A stretch of DNA of 41,644 nt. Source: Halorussus amylolyticus (GTDB taxonomy: Archaea; Halobacteriota; Halobacteria; Halobacteriales; Haladaptataceae). The stretch covers positions 1 to 41,644 of the forward strand of contig NZ_ML974140.1 of the NCBI RefSeq assembly GCF_004143485.2. Direction: 5' to 3'. A program made the translations under genes and the position numbers. Of the stretch, positions 20,775 to 41,550 are shown in pieces. The notes beneath the pieces were generated by a model. The model was not told where the DNA came from and made no database searches. It saw only the letters and a program-made list of their open reading frames with translations. The first letter of the stretch is position 1. Every line of letters starts with the position of its first letter.

Positions 20775-21926
20775 TTACTCGTTTCGCGGACTGCTCGGAT
20801 GGTAGTCGGTGTCGTACTCGCCGACCTGCCCGTCCGCGCGGTCGGGGTTGACCCGACCCGACAGGAGCATGAAATCCACGAGCGTGAGCGCCAGCATCGC
20901 CTCCACGACCGGGACCCCGCGGGGCGGAAGCACGGGGTCGTGGCGGCCGATGACCTTCTCCTCTTTCTCCTCGCCGGTCTCCCAGTCCACCGTGGTCTGG
21001 GTCTTCGGAATCGAGGTGGGCGCGTGGAGCGTGACCTCGCCGTAAATCGGCTCGCCCGTAGTGATGCCGCCCTGAAGCCCGCCGTGGTCATTTTCGGTGG
21101 GAACTGGGTCGCCATCCGAATCGAACTCCCACTCGTCGTTTCGGTCCTTGCCGGTGTACTCGCGCGCTTCGCGGCCGAGTCCGAACTCGAACGCGGTCGA
21201 GGCGGGCACGCTCATCATGGCCTGGCCGAGGCGCGATTCGACGCCGTCGAATCGCGGCGCACCCAAGCCACGCGGGACCCCGCGGGCCTCGAAGTAGATG
21301 GACCCGCCGATGGAGTCGCCCTCCTGTTGGTACTCGTCGATTCGCTCGCGCATCTGCTCGGCGGTCTCGGGGTGGGCACACCGGACTTCGTTCTCCTCGC
21401 TGTGTTCGAGCATCTCCTCGAACGAGACCTCGGGCGCTTCGATGTCGCCGATTTGGTTGACGTGCGCCTTGAGTTCGATTCCCTCGCGCGCGAGAATCTT
21501 CTTGGCGATGGCTCCCGCCGCGACCCAGTTCACGGTCTCGCGCGCCGACGACCGCCCGCCGCCGCCCCAGTTGCGCGTACCGAACTTCGCCGAGTAGGTG
21601 AAGTCGCCGTGGGACGGACGGGGCGCGGTGATAAACGGCTCGTACTTCTCCGAGCGAGCGTCCTTGTTCTCGATGACCATCCCGATGGGCGTTCCCGTGG
21701 TATAGCCGTCCTGTACGCCGGACTTGATGGATACTGCGTCTGGTTCGCCCCGACTCGTGGTTATCATCGACTGGCCGGGCTTTCGTCGGTCCAAATCGGC
21801 CTGTACGTCCTCCTCGGAGAGTTCGAGACCCGCCGGGCATCCGGACACCGTGACGCCCATCGCCTCGCCGTGGCTCTCGCCGAACGTGGCGATTTGGAAC
21901 AGGCGTCCGAAGCTGTTTCCGTTCAT
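20775..21926 (-). CDS. aroC: Chorismate synthase
   Basis: A 383-residue enzyme that converts 5-enolpyruvylshikimate 3-phosphate to chorismate, the last step of the shikimate pathway, using reduced FMN. Signatures are GESHG at 16-20, RPSHGDFTYSAKFG near 107 and GGGRSSARET near 127, plus DPVLPPRGVPVVEAM near the C-terminus. The length is close to the usual one. The ATG at 21926 begins MNGNSFGRLFQIATFGESHG, which matches the family N-terminus, and a TATA-like box lies 25 bases upstream. Shikimate kinase and chorismate mutase are encoded 8 kb away. Confidence 0.97.
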   Translation of the reverse strand: MNGNSFGRLFQIATFGESHGEAMGVTVSGCPAGLELSEEDVQADLDRRKPGQSMITTSRGEPDAVSIKSGVQDGYTTGTPIGMVIENKDARSEKYEPFITAPRPSHGDFTYSAKFGTRNWGGGGRSSARETVNWVAAGAIAKKILAREGIELKAHVNQIGDIEAPEVSFEEMLEHSEENEVRCAHPETAEQMRERIDEYQQEGDSIGGSIYFEARGVPRGLGAPRFDGVESRLGQAMMSVPASTAFEFGLGREAREYTGKDRNDEWEFDSDGDPVPTENDHGGLQGGITTGEPIYGEVTLHAPTSIPKTQTTVDWETGEEKEEKVIGRHDPVLPPRGVPVVEAMLALTLVDFMLLSGRVNPDRADGQVGEYDTDYHPSSPRNE

Positions 21927-21950
21927 TATCCGTGGTTGGGCGGTCCGGAC

Positions 21951-21958
21951 ATATAGTG
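21951..21958 (-). promoter_or_regulatory. TATA-like box of aroC
   Basis: Minus strand reads CACTATAT, 25-32 bases before the aroC ATG, the position of a leaderless archaeal promoter. Confidence 0.6.
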
Positions 21959-22100
21959 TTTGCAAAAGCCGCAAGGTTGGGTGAGGGATGGATGGAGAAT
22001 CACAGTTGTTCGAGATGGCTGAGAATATACGACTAAGCAGTTCTGGAAAGCCTCCATCGACGCCTCGCACAACGGCGTCGAAGCTAAGAGCACCAAGCAG
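21959..22100. other. Non-coding upstream part of the aroC-purM spacer with partial element end
   Basis: No gene is supported here. A diverged copy of the element's left end reads AAGCAGTTCTGGAAAGCC at 22035-22052, and the same words recur as AAGCAGTTTCAGAAAGCC at 22095-22112 where the full element begins. Between them is an 8-bp hairpin (TCGACGCC at 22057-22064 against GGCGTCGA at 22074-22081). Confidence 0.6.
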
Positions 22101-22236
22101 TTTCAGAAAGCCCCCGCCCGGTCACGGTCGCTCCAGCGGATATTCGCGGCTCTCCGCACAGCCCGCCGCGAATAGGGCCGCCGGAACCGACCACACCCAT
22201 TCGGGCGCGACCGGGCGGCCCCTTTCAGTCCCACCC
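22101..22236. repeat. Structured repeat element, copy A
   Basis: A 136-bp element that recurs at 39408-39599. It starts TTTCAGAAAGCCC and ends CCCCTTTCAGTCCCACCC. GAAAG (22106-22110) pairs with CTTTC (22222-22226), then after a 4x4 internal loop CGCCCGGTC (22115-22123) pairs with GACCGGGCG (22209-22217). Inside, TATTCGCGGC (22141-22150) pairs with GCCGCGAATA (22165-22174) around a 14-base loop. The outer stem differs in sequence from copy B but stays paired, as in a structured RNA or a palindromic mobile element. The transcribed strand is unknown. Confidence 0.8.
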
Positions 22237-22455
22237 CACCCCGCACCGCAACCGCGACAGCCACACGCCTCCCCAACCGATTCGCTCACTCGCTCCCTTC
22301 GGTCGCGCGCTCACTCATCCCTCGCGCGCATGGGCGTGACGCCAAACCACGGCGTCACGCCAGCGCGCGCCGGGAAGATTGATTCACTCCTCGCCTGAGA
22401 CTTTATAACCAAAGCCGGGACCAACTCCCCTCGTGCCCACCCGAACCCCGAAAAC
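22237..22455. other. Spacer downstream of purM with long hairpin
   Basis: A CT-rich stretch (about 22237-22320) without a credible gene, followed by a strong hairpin: GGCGTGACGCC at 22333-22343 against GGCGTCACGCC at 22351-22361, with six further outer base pairs (22324-22329 with 22365-22370). It lies 86 bases beyond the purM stop on the purM strand and could be a terminator or a processing site. Confidence 0.55.
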
Positions 22456-23436
22456 TCAGTCAGCCAGCGTCAGTCCGCGAATCGCCACCTCGTCGCCCTC
22501 GCCGACCTTGCCGATGATTCGCCCGTCCGTCTCGTCTGCCAGCGATTCCGCGTCGGCCTCCGGAAGCGCGACCACGAAGCCCGTGCCCATGTTGAACGTC
22601 CGGTGCATCTCCTCGTCGCTCACGCTCCCCTCGTGCTGGACGAACTCGAAGACCGGCTGAGCCTCGAACGGGTCGGCGATTTCGTACCGGTTCGCGCCCA
22701 TCCGCGAGAGGTTCGTCCACCCGCCGCCCGTGACGTGGGCCGCGGCGTGGACCTCGCGCTCGCGAAGCGCGGGGAGGAGGTACGTGTAGATTCGCGTGGG
22801 TTCGAGCAGGACTTCGCCCACCGTCCGACCTTCGCCCGAGTCGAGCGGGAAGGGGTCGTCGTAGTCGTGATTCCGAGTCGCGGCCTCTCGCGCGAGGGTG
22901 AGACCGTTCGAGTGGATACCGCTCGACTCGAATCCGACGAGTACGTCGCCGACTTCGGCCTCGCCGGGGAAGATGGCGTCCTTCGGGGCGAGTCCCGCGC
23001 AGGCACCCGCGAGGTCGAGACCCCGAATCACGTCGGGCATCACCGCGGTCTCGCCGCCGACGAGCGCGATGCCCGCCTCCTCAGCGCCTTGCGAGAGGCC
23101 CTCGCCGACCTGCTCGGAGAACGTCTCGGTGGGTTCGTCCACTGCGAGGTAGTCCACGAACGCGACCGGTTCGACCCCGCTCGCGACGAGGTCGTTGACG
23201 TTCATCGCGATGCAGTCGATGCCGACCGTCGAGTAGTCGGAGAGTGCTTCGGCCACGAGCAGTTTCGTGCCCACGCCGTCGGTCGCCAAGGCGAGGTAGC
23301 GGTCGCCGATGTCGAGCAGTCCCGCGAACTCGGTCTCGTCGATGTCGCCCACCGCCCCGACCAGCGCGGCGGTCGCGGCCTCGCTGGCCTCGATGTCCAC
23401 CCCGGCGTCGGCGTAGGTGAGTTCGTCGTCGCTCAT
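22456..23436 (-). CDS. purM: Phosphoribosylformylglycinamidine cyclo-ligase (AIR synthetase)
   Basis: A 326-residue enzyme of purine biosynthesis that closes the imidazole ring of FGAM with ATP to give AIR. Conserved segments are YADAGVDIE at 8-16, ATDGVGTK at 51-58, CIAMNVNDLVASGVEP at 75-90, GGETAVMPD near 152 and FESSGIHSNG near 190, followed by HVTGGGWTNLSRM. It is cytosolic and acts as a dimer in the family. A TATA-like box lies at 23459-23467. No other purine gene is in the window. Confidence 0.97.
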   Translation of the reverse strand: MSDDELTYADAGVDIEASEAATAALVGAVGDIDETEFAGLLDIGDRYLALATDGVGTKLLVAEALSDYSTVGIDCIAMNVNDLVASGVEPVAFVDYLAVDEPTETFSEQVGEGLSQGAEEAGIALVGGETAVMPDVIRGLDLAGACAGLAPKDAIFPGEAEVGDVLVGFESSGIHSNGLTLAREAATRNHDYDDPFPLDSGEGRTVGEVLLEPTRIYTYLLPALREREVHAAAHVTGGGWTNLSRMGANRYEIADPFEAQPVFEFVQHEGSVSDEEMHRTFNMGTGFVVALPEADAESLADETDGRIIGKVGEGDEVAIRGLTLAD

Positions 23437-37579: not shown

Positions 37580-39073
37580 ATGAACGGTTCCGCGGGCGAG
37601 GCGAAGTTTGCGAGTCGTATCGACGGTGAATCGTTGCTGGCCGACCTCGACATCGACGACGACGAGATACGCTGGCGGAAGGACTTCACCGGGTTCGGCG
37701 ACGACGACGCCGAGCGACTCGACGGACTGTCCGACCTGTTCGAGTCCGTCGCCGACGAGGCCGTCGAGGAGTTCTACGACCACCTGACCGCGCGCGAGGA
37801 GACGATGGCGGTTCTCGACCGCTCGACCCGGACCGTCGAACAGCTCCAGCGGACCCAGAGCGAGTACCTCGTGTCGCTGGCCGACGGCGAGTACGACCGG
37901 TCGTACTTCGCCGACCGCGCCCGAATCGGCAAGATTCACGACATGCTGGAGATGCCGATGCACCACTATCTCGGGGCGTACATGCTGTATCTCAACATCC
38001 TCGTTCCGAAAATCCGCGACCGAACAATCGACCGGGCCACAGAGCGTCTCGGCGACGACGCCGCCGAGGTGGTCCGCGAGGAGTTCCACGACGGGATGGA
38101 GGACATCCTCTCGCTCTTCCGCGCGGTGAACCTCGACATGCAGGTGGTGACCGACACCTACATCGACTCGTACAACGACGAGATTCGCGAGTCGAAAGCC
38201 GAACTCGAAGCCCTCCAGCGGCGCATCTCCGAGGACGTGCGCCACGACCTCGACACGCTCTCGTCGTCCGCCGAGGACGTGGCCGAGAGCGCCGACGAGA
38301 TACACGAACTCACCCGCGAGCAGGCGACCGACGTGGACGAAATCGCGTCCGAGACCGAGAACATGAGCGCGACGGTCGAGGAGGTGGCCGCCAGCGCCGA
38401 GGAGGTCGAGCAGACGAGCCGTCAGGCCCAGCAGTTGGCCGAGGACGGCCAGCGCACCGCGGGCGAGGCGATGGACGCCATGGCCGACATCGACGAGGCT
38501 CGGAAGGGCGCGACCGATGACATGGCCGACCTACAGGAGACGGTCGCCGAAATCGACGAGGTGGTAGATGTCATCAACGACATCGCCGACCAGACGAATT
38601 TGCTCGCGCTCAACGCGTCCATCGAGGCCGCCCGCGCGGGTGACGCGGGCGACGGCTTCGCGGTGGTCGCCGAGGAGGTCAAGAGCCTCGCCGAGCAGTC
38701 GAAATCCCAGGCGAGCGAAATCGAGGAGATGGTGGGCGAGATACAGACCAACACCCACGACACGGTCGAGAGCCTCGAACGGACCGAGGACCGAATCCAA
38801 TACGGCTCCGAGAGCGTCGAGTCGTCGCTGGAAACGCTCCAGGACATCGTGACCGCGGTCGGCGAGACGGTCCACGGCATCGAGGAGGTCGCGCAAGCGA
38901 CCGACGAGCAGGCGGTGACCGCCGAGCAGGTGTCGGCGATGGTGGACGAGGTGTCGCGCCACGCGACCGAAATCGCCGAGGAAGCGTCGTCGGTCGCGGA
39001 GGCGACCGACGAGCAGGCCGAGAACGTCGAGCGAATCGAATCGGCGGTCGAGAAACTCAGTTCCGGAGACTGA
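37580..39073 (+). CDS. Soluble globin-coupled methyl-accepting transducer (HemAT-like)
   Basis: A 497-residue cytosolic signal transducer. Residues of about 25-190 form a globin-coupled sensor domain (FESVADEAVEEFYDHLTARE, then IGKIHDMLEMPMHHYLGAY, with candidate heme histidine at 120). There are no membrane helices. Residues of about 210-497 are a long coiled-coil MCP signalling domain with the hairpin tip IADQTNLLALNASIEAARAG and VAEEVKSLAEQSKSQASEIE. In Halobacterium HemAT mediates oxygen avoidance through CheA; the same is likely here. Che genes are not in the window. Confidence 0.95.
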   Translation: MNGSAGEAKFASRIDGESLLADLDIDDDEIRWRKDFTGFGDDDAERLDGLSDLFESVADEAVEEFYDHLTAREETMAVLDRSTRTVEQLQRTQSEYLVSLADGEYDRSYFADRARIGKIHDMLEMPMHHYLGAYMLYLNILVPKIRDRTIDRATERLGDDAAEVVREEFHDGMEDILSLFRAVNLDMQVVTDTYIDSYNDEIRESKAELEALQRRISEDVRHDLDTLSSSAEDVAESADEIHELTREQATDVDEIASETENMSATVEEVAASAEEVEQTSRQAQQLAEDGQRTAGEAMDAMADIDEARKGATDDMADLQETVAEIDEVVDVINDIADQTNLLALNASIEAARAGDAGDGFAVVAEEVKSLAEQSKSQASEIEEMVGEIQTNTHDTVESLERTEDRIQYGSESVESSLETLQDIVTAVGETVHGIEEVAQATDEQAVTAEQVSAMVDEVSRHATEIAEEASSVAEATDEQAENVERIESAVEKLSSGD

Positions 39074-39407: not shown

Positions 39408-39599
39408 TTTCAGAAAGCCCTCGCCCGCTCGCGGTCGCTGACGCGGGATATTCGCGGCTCTCCACAACGCCCGCCGCGAATAGTTGCCCGCGCAGGCGAC
39501 CACGGGCCTGCGGCCCGCCGGAAGACAAACCGCGTCTTCCGAGGTCACACTCGCGTTGCTCGCGTGACCGCGAGCGGGCGACCCCTTTCAGTCCCACCC
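39408..39599. repeat. Structured repeat element, copy B
   Basis: The 192-bp counterpart of 22101-22236. GAAAG (39413-39417) pairs with CTTTC (39585-39589). After a 4x4 loop, CGCCCGCTCGCGGTC (39422-39436) pairs perfectly with a 15-base right arm (39566-39580). TATTCGCGGC (39449-39458) pairs with GCCGCGAATA (39473-39482) with the same 14-base loop length as copy A. The variable interior holds extra hairpins (CGGGCC...GGCCCG at 39503-39517; GGAAGAC...GTCTTCC at 39520-39540). The left and right ends are almost identical to copy A. Confidence 0.8.
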
Positions 39600-39658: not shown

Positions 39659-41527
39659 TTACGCTCGCGCTTGAATCTCCTCGCGGAGAATCTCGCTCAC
39701 CGTGTCGCCGTCGGCCTTGCCGCCGAGCGCCCCCATGCACTCGCCCATCAGCCCGGAAAACGCCTGCATCCCCTCCTCGGCGACCTGTTGCTCGTTTCGC
39801 TCGACGACCTCGACGACCGCCTCCCGAACCTCCTCGTCGCCCGCGCTCCCGAGGCCCTCGCGCTCGACGGCCTCGGCGGCGGTGAGGTCGGGAGTCTCCG
39901 CGAGCGCGGTCAGTACGTCGCCGACGTTGCCCTTCGCGGTCTCCCCCTCGGCGACCAGTTCGAAGGTGCCGACGAAGTGGTCGTCGGCCAGATTCTCGAC
40001 CGGCACGCCGTCGCGCCGGAGTTCGGTCACGGTGCTTTCGATGGTGCCCGCCGCGAGCGTCGGGTCGGTGCCCATCTCGACCACGCGCTCGAACAGGGCC
40101 ATCCGCCTCCCGTAGGCGACCTGTTCTGCGAGTCCCGCATCGAGACCGTACTCGTCCTGATAGCGTTCGACCTTCTCGGTCAGGAGTTCGGGCGTCTCGA
40201 CCTCGGTGGGGTCGGGTTCGACCGGCGGCACGTCGGTCTCGGGATACATCCGGGCCGCGCCGGGCAGGGGTCGGAGGTAGCGAGTCGTCCCGTCGTCGTT
40301 CGCGCCACGGGTCTCCTCCGGAACGCCGTCGAGCGCGGTCCGGGCGCGCTCGGCGGCCGCCTCGATGGCGAGGTCGGCCGTTTCGGGGTCGGCGGCCACG
40401 ATAGCGACTGCATCGTCGTCGCCCGCGTTCACGGCATCGCGGAGCGCGGCCACTTCCTCGTCGGTCACGCCGTAGGCCGGGAGTTCGTCGGTGTGGAAGA
40501 TGCCGCCCGCGCCGTGGCGCTTGGCGTGGTCCGAGAGTTCGGTGCCGAGTCGTCGGTCCGGCTGGAGTTCCGCACCGACGAGTCCGTCGAAGCCGTAGAG
40601 AGGGACCGCCGTGACCTTTCCGCCGGAGTCTAAGGCTCCGCGAATCACTCCCGAATCGGTGTCGGCGAAGGTGTCGGTCACCTCCGTCACGTCGCCCACG
40701 CTCGCGTCGCGTTCGTGGAGTTCGTCGCGGACTTCGAGCAGGCGGACCTGCCGGTGAGCCTCGTTTCGCACGAGGTCGTCGATGTCGTCCAAACTCTGGA
40801 CGCCCTTCACCTCGACGCGCGCGCCCTCCGCGATGGAGATGTTAACGTCCTGACGGATTGTGCCGAGTCCGCGCTTGACCTGCCCGGTCGAGCGCAGGAG
40901 CATCCCGATGGTCTCGGCGGCCTCGCGGGCCTGCTCGGGCGAGCGGATGTCGGGCTTGGTGCCGATTTCCACGAGCGGGATGCCGAGGCGGTCGAGGCTG
41001 TAGAGGACGCCGTCCTCGCGCTCCTCGACGCGCTGGGCGCTTTCTTCTTCGAGCATCAGGTCCTCGACGCCCACCGGACCGTCGCTCGTCTCGATTTCGC
41101 CGTCGGTCGCCATCAGGGTCGAGCGCTGGAACCCCGAGGTGTTCGAGCCGTCCACGACGATTTTCCGCATGACGTGGGCCTGGTCTATCACGTCCATGTC
41201 GAGGAGCTGGGCGATTTCGAGGACGACTTCTTGGGCCTCGTCGTCCAGCCTGTGGGGCGGTTCGTCGTCCTCCTCGACCAGACACGTCGAGTCGTACGCC
41301 AAATACTCGAACTCGCGCTCGACTCGGCTCTCCTCGACGGCGGCGTCGTCGAGTTCGCCGAGTTCGCTCTTGGTCGGGTGGAGGAATCTGGTGAATCGCC
41401 GGTCGGACGCCTCGGGGTCGCGGAGGTCGGTCGGACAGTTGCAGAACAGCTTCGTCTCGGTGTCGAGCTGTTGGTGTATCTCCAACCCCGCGACGAGGCC
41501 GAGGTCCTCGTAGTCGTGTTCGGTCAT
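39659..41527 (-). CDS. gatE: Glu-tRNA(Gln) amidotransferase subunit E
   Basis: A 622-residue enzyme that, with GatD, converts Glu-tRNA(Gln) to Gln-tRNA(Gln); archaeal-specific. The GatB/E catalytic cradle begins LGLVAGLEIHQQLDTETKLF, contains CNCPTDLRD near 34 and LVEIGTKPDIRSPEQA near 185, then KRGLGTIRQDVNIS. An inserted GAD domain (about 275-400, with VTAVPLYGFDGLVG) distinguishes GatE from GatB, and the C-terminal 150 residues form the YqeY-like tRNA-binding tail (GLMGECMGALGGKADG). The ATG at 41527 gives MTEHDYEDLG. GatD is not in the window. Confidence 0.97.
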   Translation of the reverse strand: MTEHDYEDLGLVAGLEIHQQLDTETKLFCNCPTDLRDPEASDRRFTRFLHPTKSELGELDDAAVEESRVEREFEYLAYDSTCLVEEDDEPPHRLDDEAQEVVLEIAQLLDMDVIDQAHVMRKIVVDGSNTSGFQRSTLMATDGEIETSDGPVGVEDLMLEEESAQRVEEREDGVLYSLDRLGIPLVEIGTKPDIRSPEQAREAAETIGMLLRSTGQVKRGLGTIRQDVNISIAEGARVEVKGVQSLDDIDDLVRNEAHRQVRLLEVRDELHERDASVGDVTEVTDTFADTDSGVIRGALDSGGKVTAVPLYGFDGLVGAELQPDRRLGTELSDHAKRHGAGGIFHTDELPAYGVTDEEVAALRDAVNAGDDDAVAIVAADPETADLAIEAAAERARTALDGVPEETRGANDDGTTRYLRPLPGAARMYPETDVPPVEPDPTEVETPELLTEKVERYQDEYGLDAGLAEQVAYGRRMALFERVVEMGTDPTLAAGTIESTVTELRRDGVPVENLADDHFVGTFELVAEGETAKGNVGDVLTALAETPDLTAAEAVEREGLGSAGDEEVREAVVEVVERNEQQVAEEGMQAFSGLMGECMGALGGKADGDTVSEILREEIQARA

Positions 41528-41550
41528 TACTCGCCAGTGAGACACGGAGG

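Follow-up and report, generated by a model that had tools for sequence, protein, structure and literature searches.

The two copies and their neighbours

The window described here, that is the whole stretch of DNA that was analysed, 41,644 nucleotides of Halorussus amylolyticus, carries two copies of a recurrent foldable sequence, one between aroC and a purM-like gene, the other between a transducer gene and gatE. Scores marked R1 in the following list come from a covariance model for which 28 other copies were used and both window copies left out.

20778..22070, minus strand: chorismate synthase gene aroC, 5' end toward copy 1 (TIGR00033, E 5.9e-117)
22046..22105, plus strand: degenerate upstream A unit (GGAAAGCCTCC...TTTCA), a repeated left-arm-like module which precedes many copies
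22106..22232, plus strand: copy 1, whole core, 127 nt (R1, built without copy 1, 107.8 bits, E 6.7e-22)
22106..22110, plus strand: left arm GAAAG of the copy 1 terminal stem, partner of 22222-22226 (paired in 99% of cells across the family)
22111..22113, plus strand: copy 1 conserved unpaired internal loop, CCC opposite CCC at 22219-22221 (invariant alignment columns)
22114..22123, plus strand: copy 1 closing stem, left arm CCGCCCGGTC, with right arm GACCGGGCGG at 22209-22218 (seen in the sequence)
22141..22174, plus strand: copy 1 inner 10-bp hairpin with 14-base loop (seen in the sequence; other copies vary with compensation)
22222..22226, plus strand: right arm CTTTC of the copy 1 terminal stem; conserved AGTCCC comes next, at 22227-22232
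22241..22378, plus strand: downstream P module, ACCGCGACAGCCAC..CCTCCCC..ATCCCTCGCGCGC..hairpin..GCGCGC (seen in the sequence)
22459..23436, minus strand: purM-like AIR synthase gene, 3' end toward copy 1 (TIGR00878, E 1.5e-93)
37580..39070, plus strand: protoglobin-domain methyl-accepting transducer gene, 3' end toward copy 2 (PF11563, PF00015)
39413..39595, plus strand: copy 2, entire core of 183 nt including the inserted module (R1, 73.3 bits, E 1.4e-13)
39449..39482, plus strand: inner hairpin of copy 2, 10 bp with a loop of 14 bases (seen in the sequence)
about 39518..39569, plus strand: copy 2 Q module in the 3' bulge, hairpins GGAAGAC-GTCTTCC and GGTCACACTCG-CGCGTGACC (module recurs in loops of other copies)
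39662..41545, minus strand: gatE, 3' end toward copy 2 (TIGR00134, E 4.6e-234)

Both copies are present as an earlier note on this DNA had described them: a GAAAG/CTTTC stem leads into an internal loop, which proves to be three C opposed to three C; the closing stems differ between the copies, each being matched by its own right arm; the inner hairpin is common to both; and the interior differs in length. The shared ends are also there, and define a family core which spans from GAAAG to CTTTCAGTCCC, but the TTTCA preceding GAAAG in both window copies lies outside the family, since CCA, CTC or TTC precedes most of the 102 copies compared. The transducer preceding copy 2 is of the protoglobin type, HemAT-like.

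Family size, spread and architecture

R1 matches 94 places in the 3.78 Mb genome of H. amylolyticus, both window copies included. Identical loci and flanks on contigs C7/C16 and C5/C10 suggest that these contigs are redundant in the assembly, so that this figure is slightly too high. With copy 1 as query, at least 42 matches were obtained in the same genome (best 40 of 147 candidates scored). Neither window copy is a chance resemblance, as a model built without them recovers both at the E values listed. The follow-up proposed in the earlier note, a covariance model run on haloarchaeal genomes, thus yielded many further copies, in which the stems stay paired.

Among congeners the copy number ranges from 0 to about 100, the latter in Halorussus salilacus (108 model matches). 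The right-end word CCCCTTTCANTCCC is found 79 times in H. amylolyticus, 85 times in H. salilacus and never in congener G009, while its reversed control has no occurrence in any of 40 genomes. At the level of the order, covariance model matches were detected in 151 of 293 genomes, belonging to 52 of 87 genera. A phage collection gave no match to the family; six pattern matches in viral contigs lack the left arm and were rejected as chance. The literature search found no paper describing the family, the one sequence match, in PMC5217627, being an unrelated bacterial CRISPR repeat. These foldable DNA hairpins of about 110-130 bases form a large, apparently undescribed family.

The copies are extragenic, and share one architecture: an imperfect palindrome, long and conserved at its ends, GAAAGCCC...CCCCTTTCA-N-TCC. 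Read 5' to 3', the GAAAG/CTTTC stem and the opposed CCC triplets are followed by a variable stem of 10-12 bp; then come a stem GGTCG-CT / AG-A-CGACC, featuring a bulged A, and a second variable stem; toward the apex lie a small asymmetric loop beside a conserved ATA/ATA pairing and a variable hairpin, whose loop is often of 14 bases. Beyond the core, conservation continues on the right side only, as A-N-TCCC-(A/G)CCC, the left neighbour being weakly conserved and often ending GAAC..CCA or ..CTC. Some cores combine the same ends with another interior (L298-L300), and others feature GGAAG/CTTCC ends (L295-L297). The latter, from Haloarcula genomes, make up a third class of hairpin, which ends in GGAAGCCCTC...CGCCCTTCCAGTCC and has long near-perfect stems.

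Accessory modules

Various short modules accompany the cores. A GAAAGCC[C/T] unit is found at most 140 nt upstream in 46 of 102 copies. Tandem A units of 54-66 nt, which start with the core left arm and vary in number, lie directly upstream of 46 of the 102 cores, as at 22046-22105 in the window and in the upstream flanks of L006, L010, L013 and L168. On the other side, B units of about 35 nt (GTGTCACCGG..CCGGTG) follow many cores; downstream of L010, L013, L017 and L024 we observed arrays of units of about 35 nt with a small hairpin (GTGTCACCGGCCGTTTCCGGTGG), often ended by GTGTCACCGAGCGC. The P module of the window, at 22241-22378, represents a second structured repeat, CCTCCCC[A/T]..CCGATT..ATCCCTCGCGCG..hairpin..GCGCGC, which trails cores in several genera; its order is the same in L088, L090, L094 and L102, and cores of other genomes are followed by it as well.

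Insertions into cores fall in loops. The Q module, about 50 nt with two small hairpins, is located within the predicted core loops of L179, L182, L186, L192 and L195, where it occupies the apical loop, and its insertion in a bulge accounts for the greater length of copy 2. Q-like sequence was also seen fused to the broken cores L198-L203.

Covariation and the nature of the folded strand

Pairing was evaluated over 40 base pairs in 90 distinct sequences, and is kept in 97.4% of cells. Both sides change in 25 of the 40 pairs, a figure reached by none of 500 shuffles, and sliding the arms out of register lowers pairing from 97% to 34-44%. In helix 2, which corresponds to the closing stem, double changes affect 8 of 12 pairs.

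Such very strong covariation, together with conserved loops, is what would be expected of a structured non-coding RNA or an mRNA leader, every copy being transcribed and the hairpin working as RNA, and a structured non-coding RNA was among the candidates of the earlier note. Localization also lends itself to this reading: of 92 copies, 70 have their left edge, and 42 their right edge, beside the start of a divergently transcribed gene (loci of H. amylolyticus and H. salilacus; Fisher p = 0.0005 for the former genome and 0.06 for the latter). The changes, however, are almost purely of the Watson-Crick type. RNA folded from either strand should produce an excess of G-U or of A-C, and neither is found, with 32 G-U cells, 16 of them at a single position, against 41 A-C cells among 3549. 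In contrast, 180 cells from the acceptor and T stems of 15 H. amylolyticus tRNAs include 7 G-U and no A-C (Fisher p = 0.005 for the comparison, the control being small). Rfam, at gathering score, has no match in the window and six further loci, no constant gene partner accompanies the chromosomal copies, and orthologous sites show lost, truncated or swapped copies. We therefore regard an RNA function as unlikely. The G-U test, an argument drawn from sequence, argues for a hairpin that would form at the DNA level.

Turnover and probable movement on chromosomes

Paralogues at different loci, 92-98% identical and the closest of them 97-98%, match over the core only, and their flanks differ (see L022/L075 and L004/L014). 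Comparison of H. amylolyticus with H. salilacus identified ten locus pairs with at least one common flank, six of them with both; the orthologous cores are 80-94% identical, against a median of 86% for random cores, and the best paralogue within the genome is usually closer than the orthologous core. At the L013 site both stems are wholly different in the two species, and both are paired.

Empty sites were found in six congeners (G009, G017, G005, G015, G007 and G002). At the L013, radB and L073 sites several congeners have short, element-free intergenic regions, and truncated remnants are present at the radB site in H. salilacus, G011 and G015. No exact insertion of a single element into otherwise identical sequence was detected, the empty sites differing by more than the core, and the flanks are too diverged for a base-exact junction to be obtained. 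Target-site duplications, a hallmark of classic MITEs with terminal inverted repeats, did not emerge among 92 copies, where left/right k-mers show no excess over shuffled pairs. Along the chromosome of H. salilacus, copies are not clustered by replication strand (p = 0.14 in a runs test); cores on a plasmid of this species show an apparent split in orientation.

Taken as a unit, the core seems to spread like a non-autonomous mobile element, in a REPIN-like fashion, although gene conversion among copies already in place could account for the turnover of cores just as well as transposition would. Of the candidates put forward in the earlier note, the palindromic mobile element fits best, in view of the core-only identity, the empty or decayed sites and the variable number of copies per congener; the target-site duplications that were to accompany it were not seen.

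Whole-core replacement at orthologous sites and covariation restricted to Watson-Crick pairs would also be produced by functionless, neutral palindromes, perfected by template switching or ectopic gene conversion. This origin appears very improbable: the C3 x C3 mismatch, the bulged A and the ATA/GATAG asymmetry are conserved and not corrected, which argues against self-correction of a neutral palindrome, and plasmid copies, described below, hold one position in many genera.

REPINs are REP doublets forming hairpins, associated with RAYT transposases (PMC3116915). The family resembles them in being extragenic and present in high copy, in forming a long single-stranded DNA hairpin with conserved ends and variable interior, in its lineage-dependent number and in its non-autonomous character (PMC3116915). 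That it should be a REPIN or PATE proper, namely an IS200/IS605-type element, non-autonomous and mobilised by a Y1 (RAYT-like) transposase, would also agree with the lack of target-site duplications. Nevertheless, the Y1 transposase domain PF01797 has no match in the H. amylolyticus genome, nor in those of the element-rich G001, G003, G010 and G016, nor in that of G002. With the transposase missing, membership of the REPIN/RAYT group fails, and we consider it unlikely. Stems are moreover far longer than in REPINs, a fixed plasmid locus is found in addition, and the ends are different: at the place of the GTAG/CGTC-type tetranucleotide of the REP foot there are mostly CCA, CTC or TTC on the left and TCA-N-TCCC on the right.

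The right ends and Omega RNAs of TnpB loci in haloarchaeal IS200/IS605 elements are likewise structured non-coding DNA of mobile elements (PMC12558985). The end motif, however, is absent from all four TnpB loci of the H. amylolyticus genome, and copies do not occupy a guide-adjacent position; the suggestion that they are guide-RNA remnants of a transposon finds no support.

A plasmid locus upstream of an OB-fold gene

Matches to the core of the type described so far (type I) and its flanks occur in 13 Haloarcula plasmid records, mostly once per plasmid. On pNG500, pHH126 and a H. halophila plasmid, a gene for an OB-fold (SOSS-B-like) protein follows the core at 494, 496 and 626 nt, respectively, and a gene with a T4SS DNA-binding domain comes a further 4-5 kb or so away. 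A core with a second interior (type II) and the ends of type I is carried by plasmids of Haloplanus, Haladaptatus, Halomarina, Halobacterium and Halorarius, where it stands some 469-544 nt ahead of an OB-fold DNA-binding gene; here the OB-fold assignment is based on weak Pfam matches and a phmmer match to solved OB-fold proteins. The core lies on the same strand as the downstream gene.

Type II cores match 105 plasmid records and the gene 199. Among the matches listed, 17 records have both core and gene; in 11 of these the gene follows the core on its own strand, at a distance of 446-618 nt, and the remaining ones contain several gene copies, and in two of them another copy sits beside the core, as judged by annotation or a second match. 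Many of these plasmids are typed MPF_T, and in some a gene for T4SS DNA binding or for conjugal transfer lies in the neighbourhood; the genus of the window is represented by H. vallis, where the plasmid locus is present with a conjugal transfer gene close to it. pNRC200 retains the OB-fold gene together with most of the spacer; a tnpB gene lies just upstream, and the core was not found there. Between core and OB-fold gene, a non-coding block of about 450-550 nt with several conserved palindromes was observed in L343-L350, L352 and L354.

A mere parasite would hardly be expected to keep a single position across many genera.

Comparison with known hairpin systems

Integron attC sites are recognised by structure as a folded single strand; they feature an extrahelical base, and their stems vary with pairing kept. 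The haloarchaeal cores share the extrahelical base and the varying but paired stems; in contrast, they are scattered singly, with other ends and no cassette array seen. ERIC and similar bacterial intergenic palindromes, imperfect, about 120-130 bp long and scattered between genes, are comparable in length and dispersal, but belong to another domain and are unrelated in sequence, and the haloarchaeal family is distinguished from them by its conserved mismatches and its plasmid locus. The nearest analogues, judged by resemblance, are REPINs for the mode of spread (PMC3116915) and Frpo for the place on plasmids (PMC11541004).

On bacterial plasmids the single-strand promoter Frpo precedes ssb, and SSB stimulates its transcription (PMC11541004). 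As with Frpo/ssi elements, a sequence able to fold as single-stranded DNA, occurring in several types, precedes a gene for a single-stranded DNA-binding protein on plasmids with transfer genes (PMC11541004); in haloarchaea, a predicted single-stranded DNA hairpin stands upstream of an SSB-type plasmid gene, on its strand. The family might be a plasmid leading-region hairpin similar to Frpo, or a transfer origin, which spread from there to chromosomes; fixed position and strand, the MPF_T type of many plasmids and the transfer genes near some of them are compatible with this, which we consider possible but doubtful. Against it, the long spacer contains further structured blocks, and chromosomal copies have no OB-fold gene. 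MOB-suite types the plasmids as non-mobilizable. The haloarchaeal element, a putative promoter, further differs from Frpo/ssi in its distance of 446-626 nt from the gene and its amplification on chromosomes, and no sigma-70 elements are expected in it.

A probable single-strand hairpin module

High copy number, covariation with Watson-Crick-only pairing, a core-sized unit of spread, turnover of orthologous cores, order-wide distribution and a fixed plasmid position are the observations to be reconciled. The explanation which accommodates them best, and which we consider probable, is that of a hairpin module formed by single-stranded DNA, which belongs to the biology of plasmids and also proliferates on chromosomes. 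The folded single strand would be the working form, arising when DNA becomes single-stranded, as in plasmid transfer, replication or excision. The common ends may be read, on chromosomes and plasmids alike, by a putative class of enzymes or proteins processing single-stranded DNA. On chromosomes, recognition of the ends would lead to copying or movement of the core as a non-autonomous, REPIN-like element; on plasmids, the core would be kept because it serves them, most likely when their single-stranded form is handled or expressed.

A more specific version, which we put forward only tentatively, makes the plasmid core the archaeal counterpart of Frpo or of a transfer origin, acting exclusively upon single-stranded entry of the plasmid, where it would switch on, or load, the plasmid's own single-stranded DNA-binding protein; chromosomal spread would then exploit the same single-strand machinery.

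A dominant repeat of haloarchaeal intergenic DNA, covered by no Rfam family, can now be named, and provides a clean case in which covariation does not mean RNA. Whatever its precise role, it offers a concrete cis-acting candidate for the handling of single-stranded DNA by large haloarchaeal plasmids.
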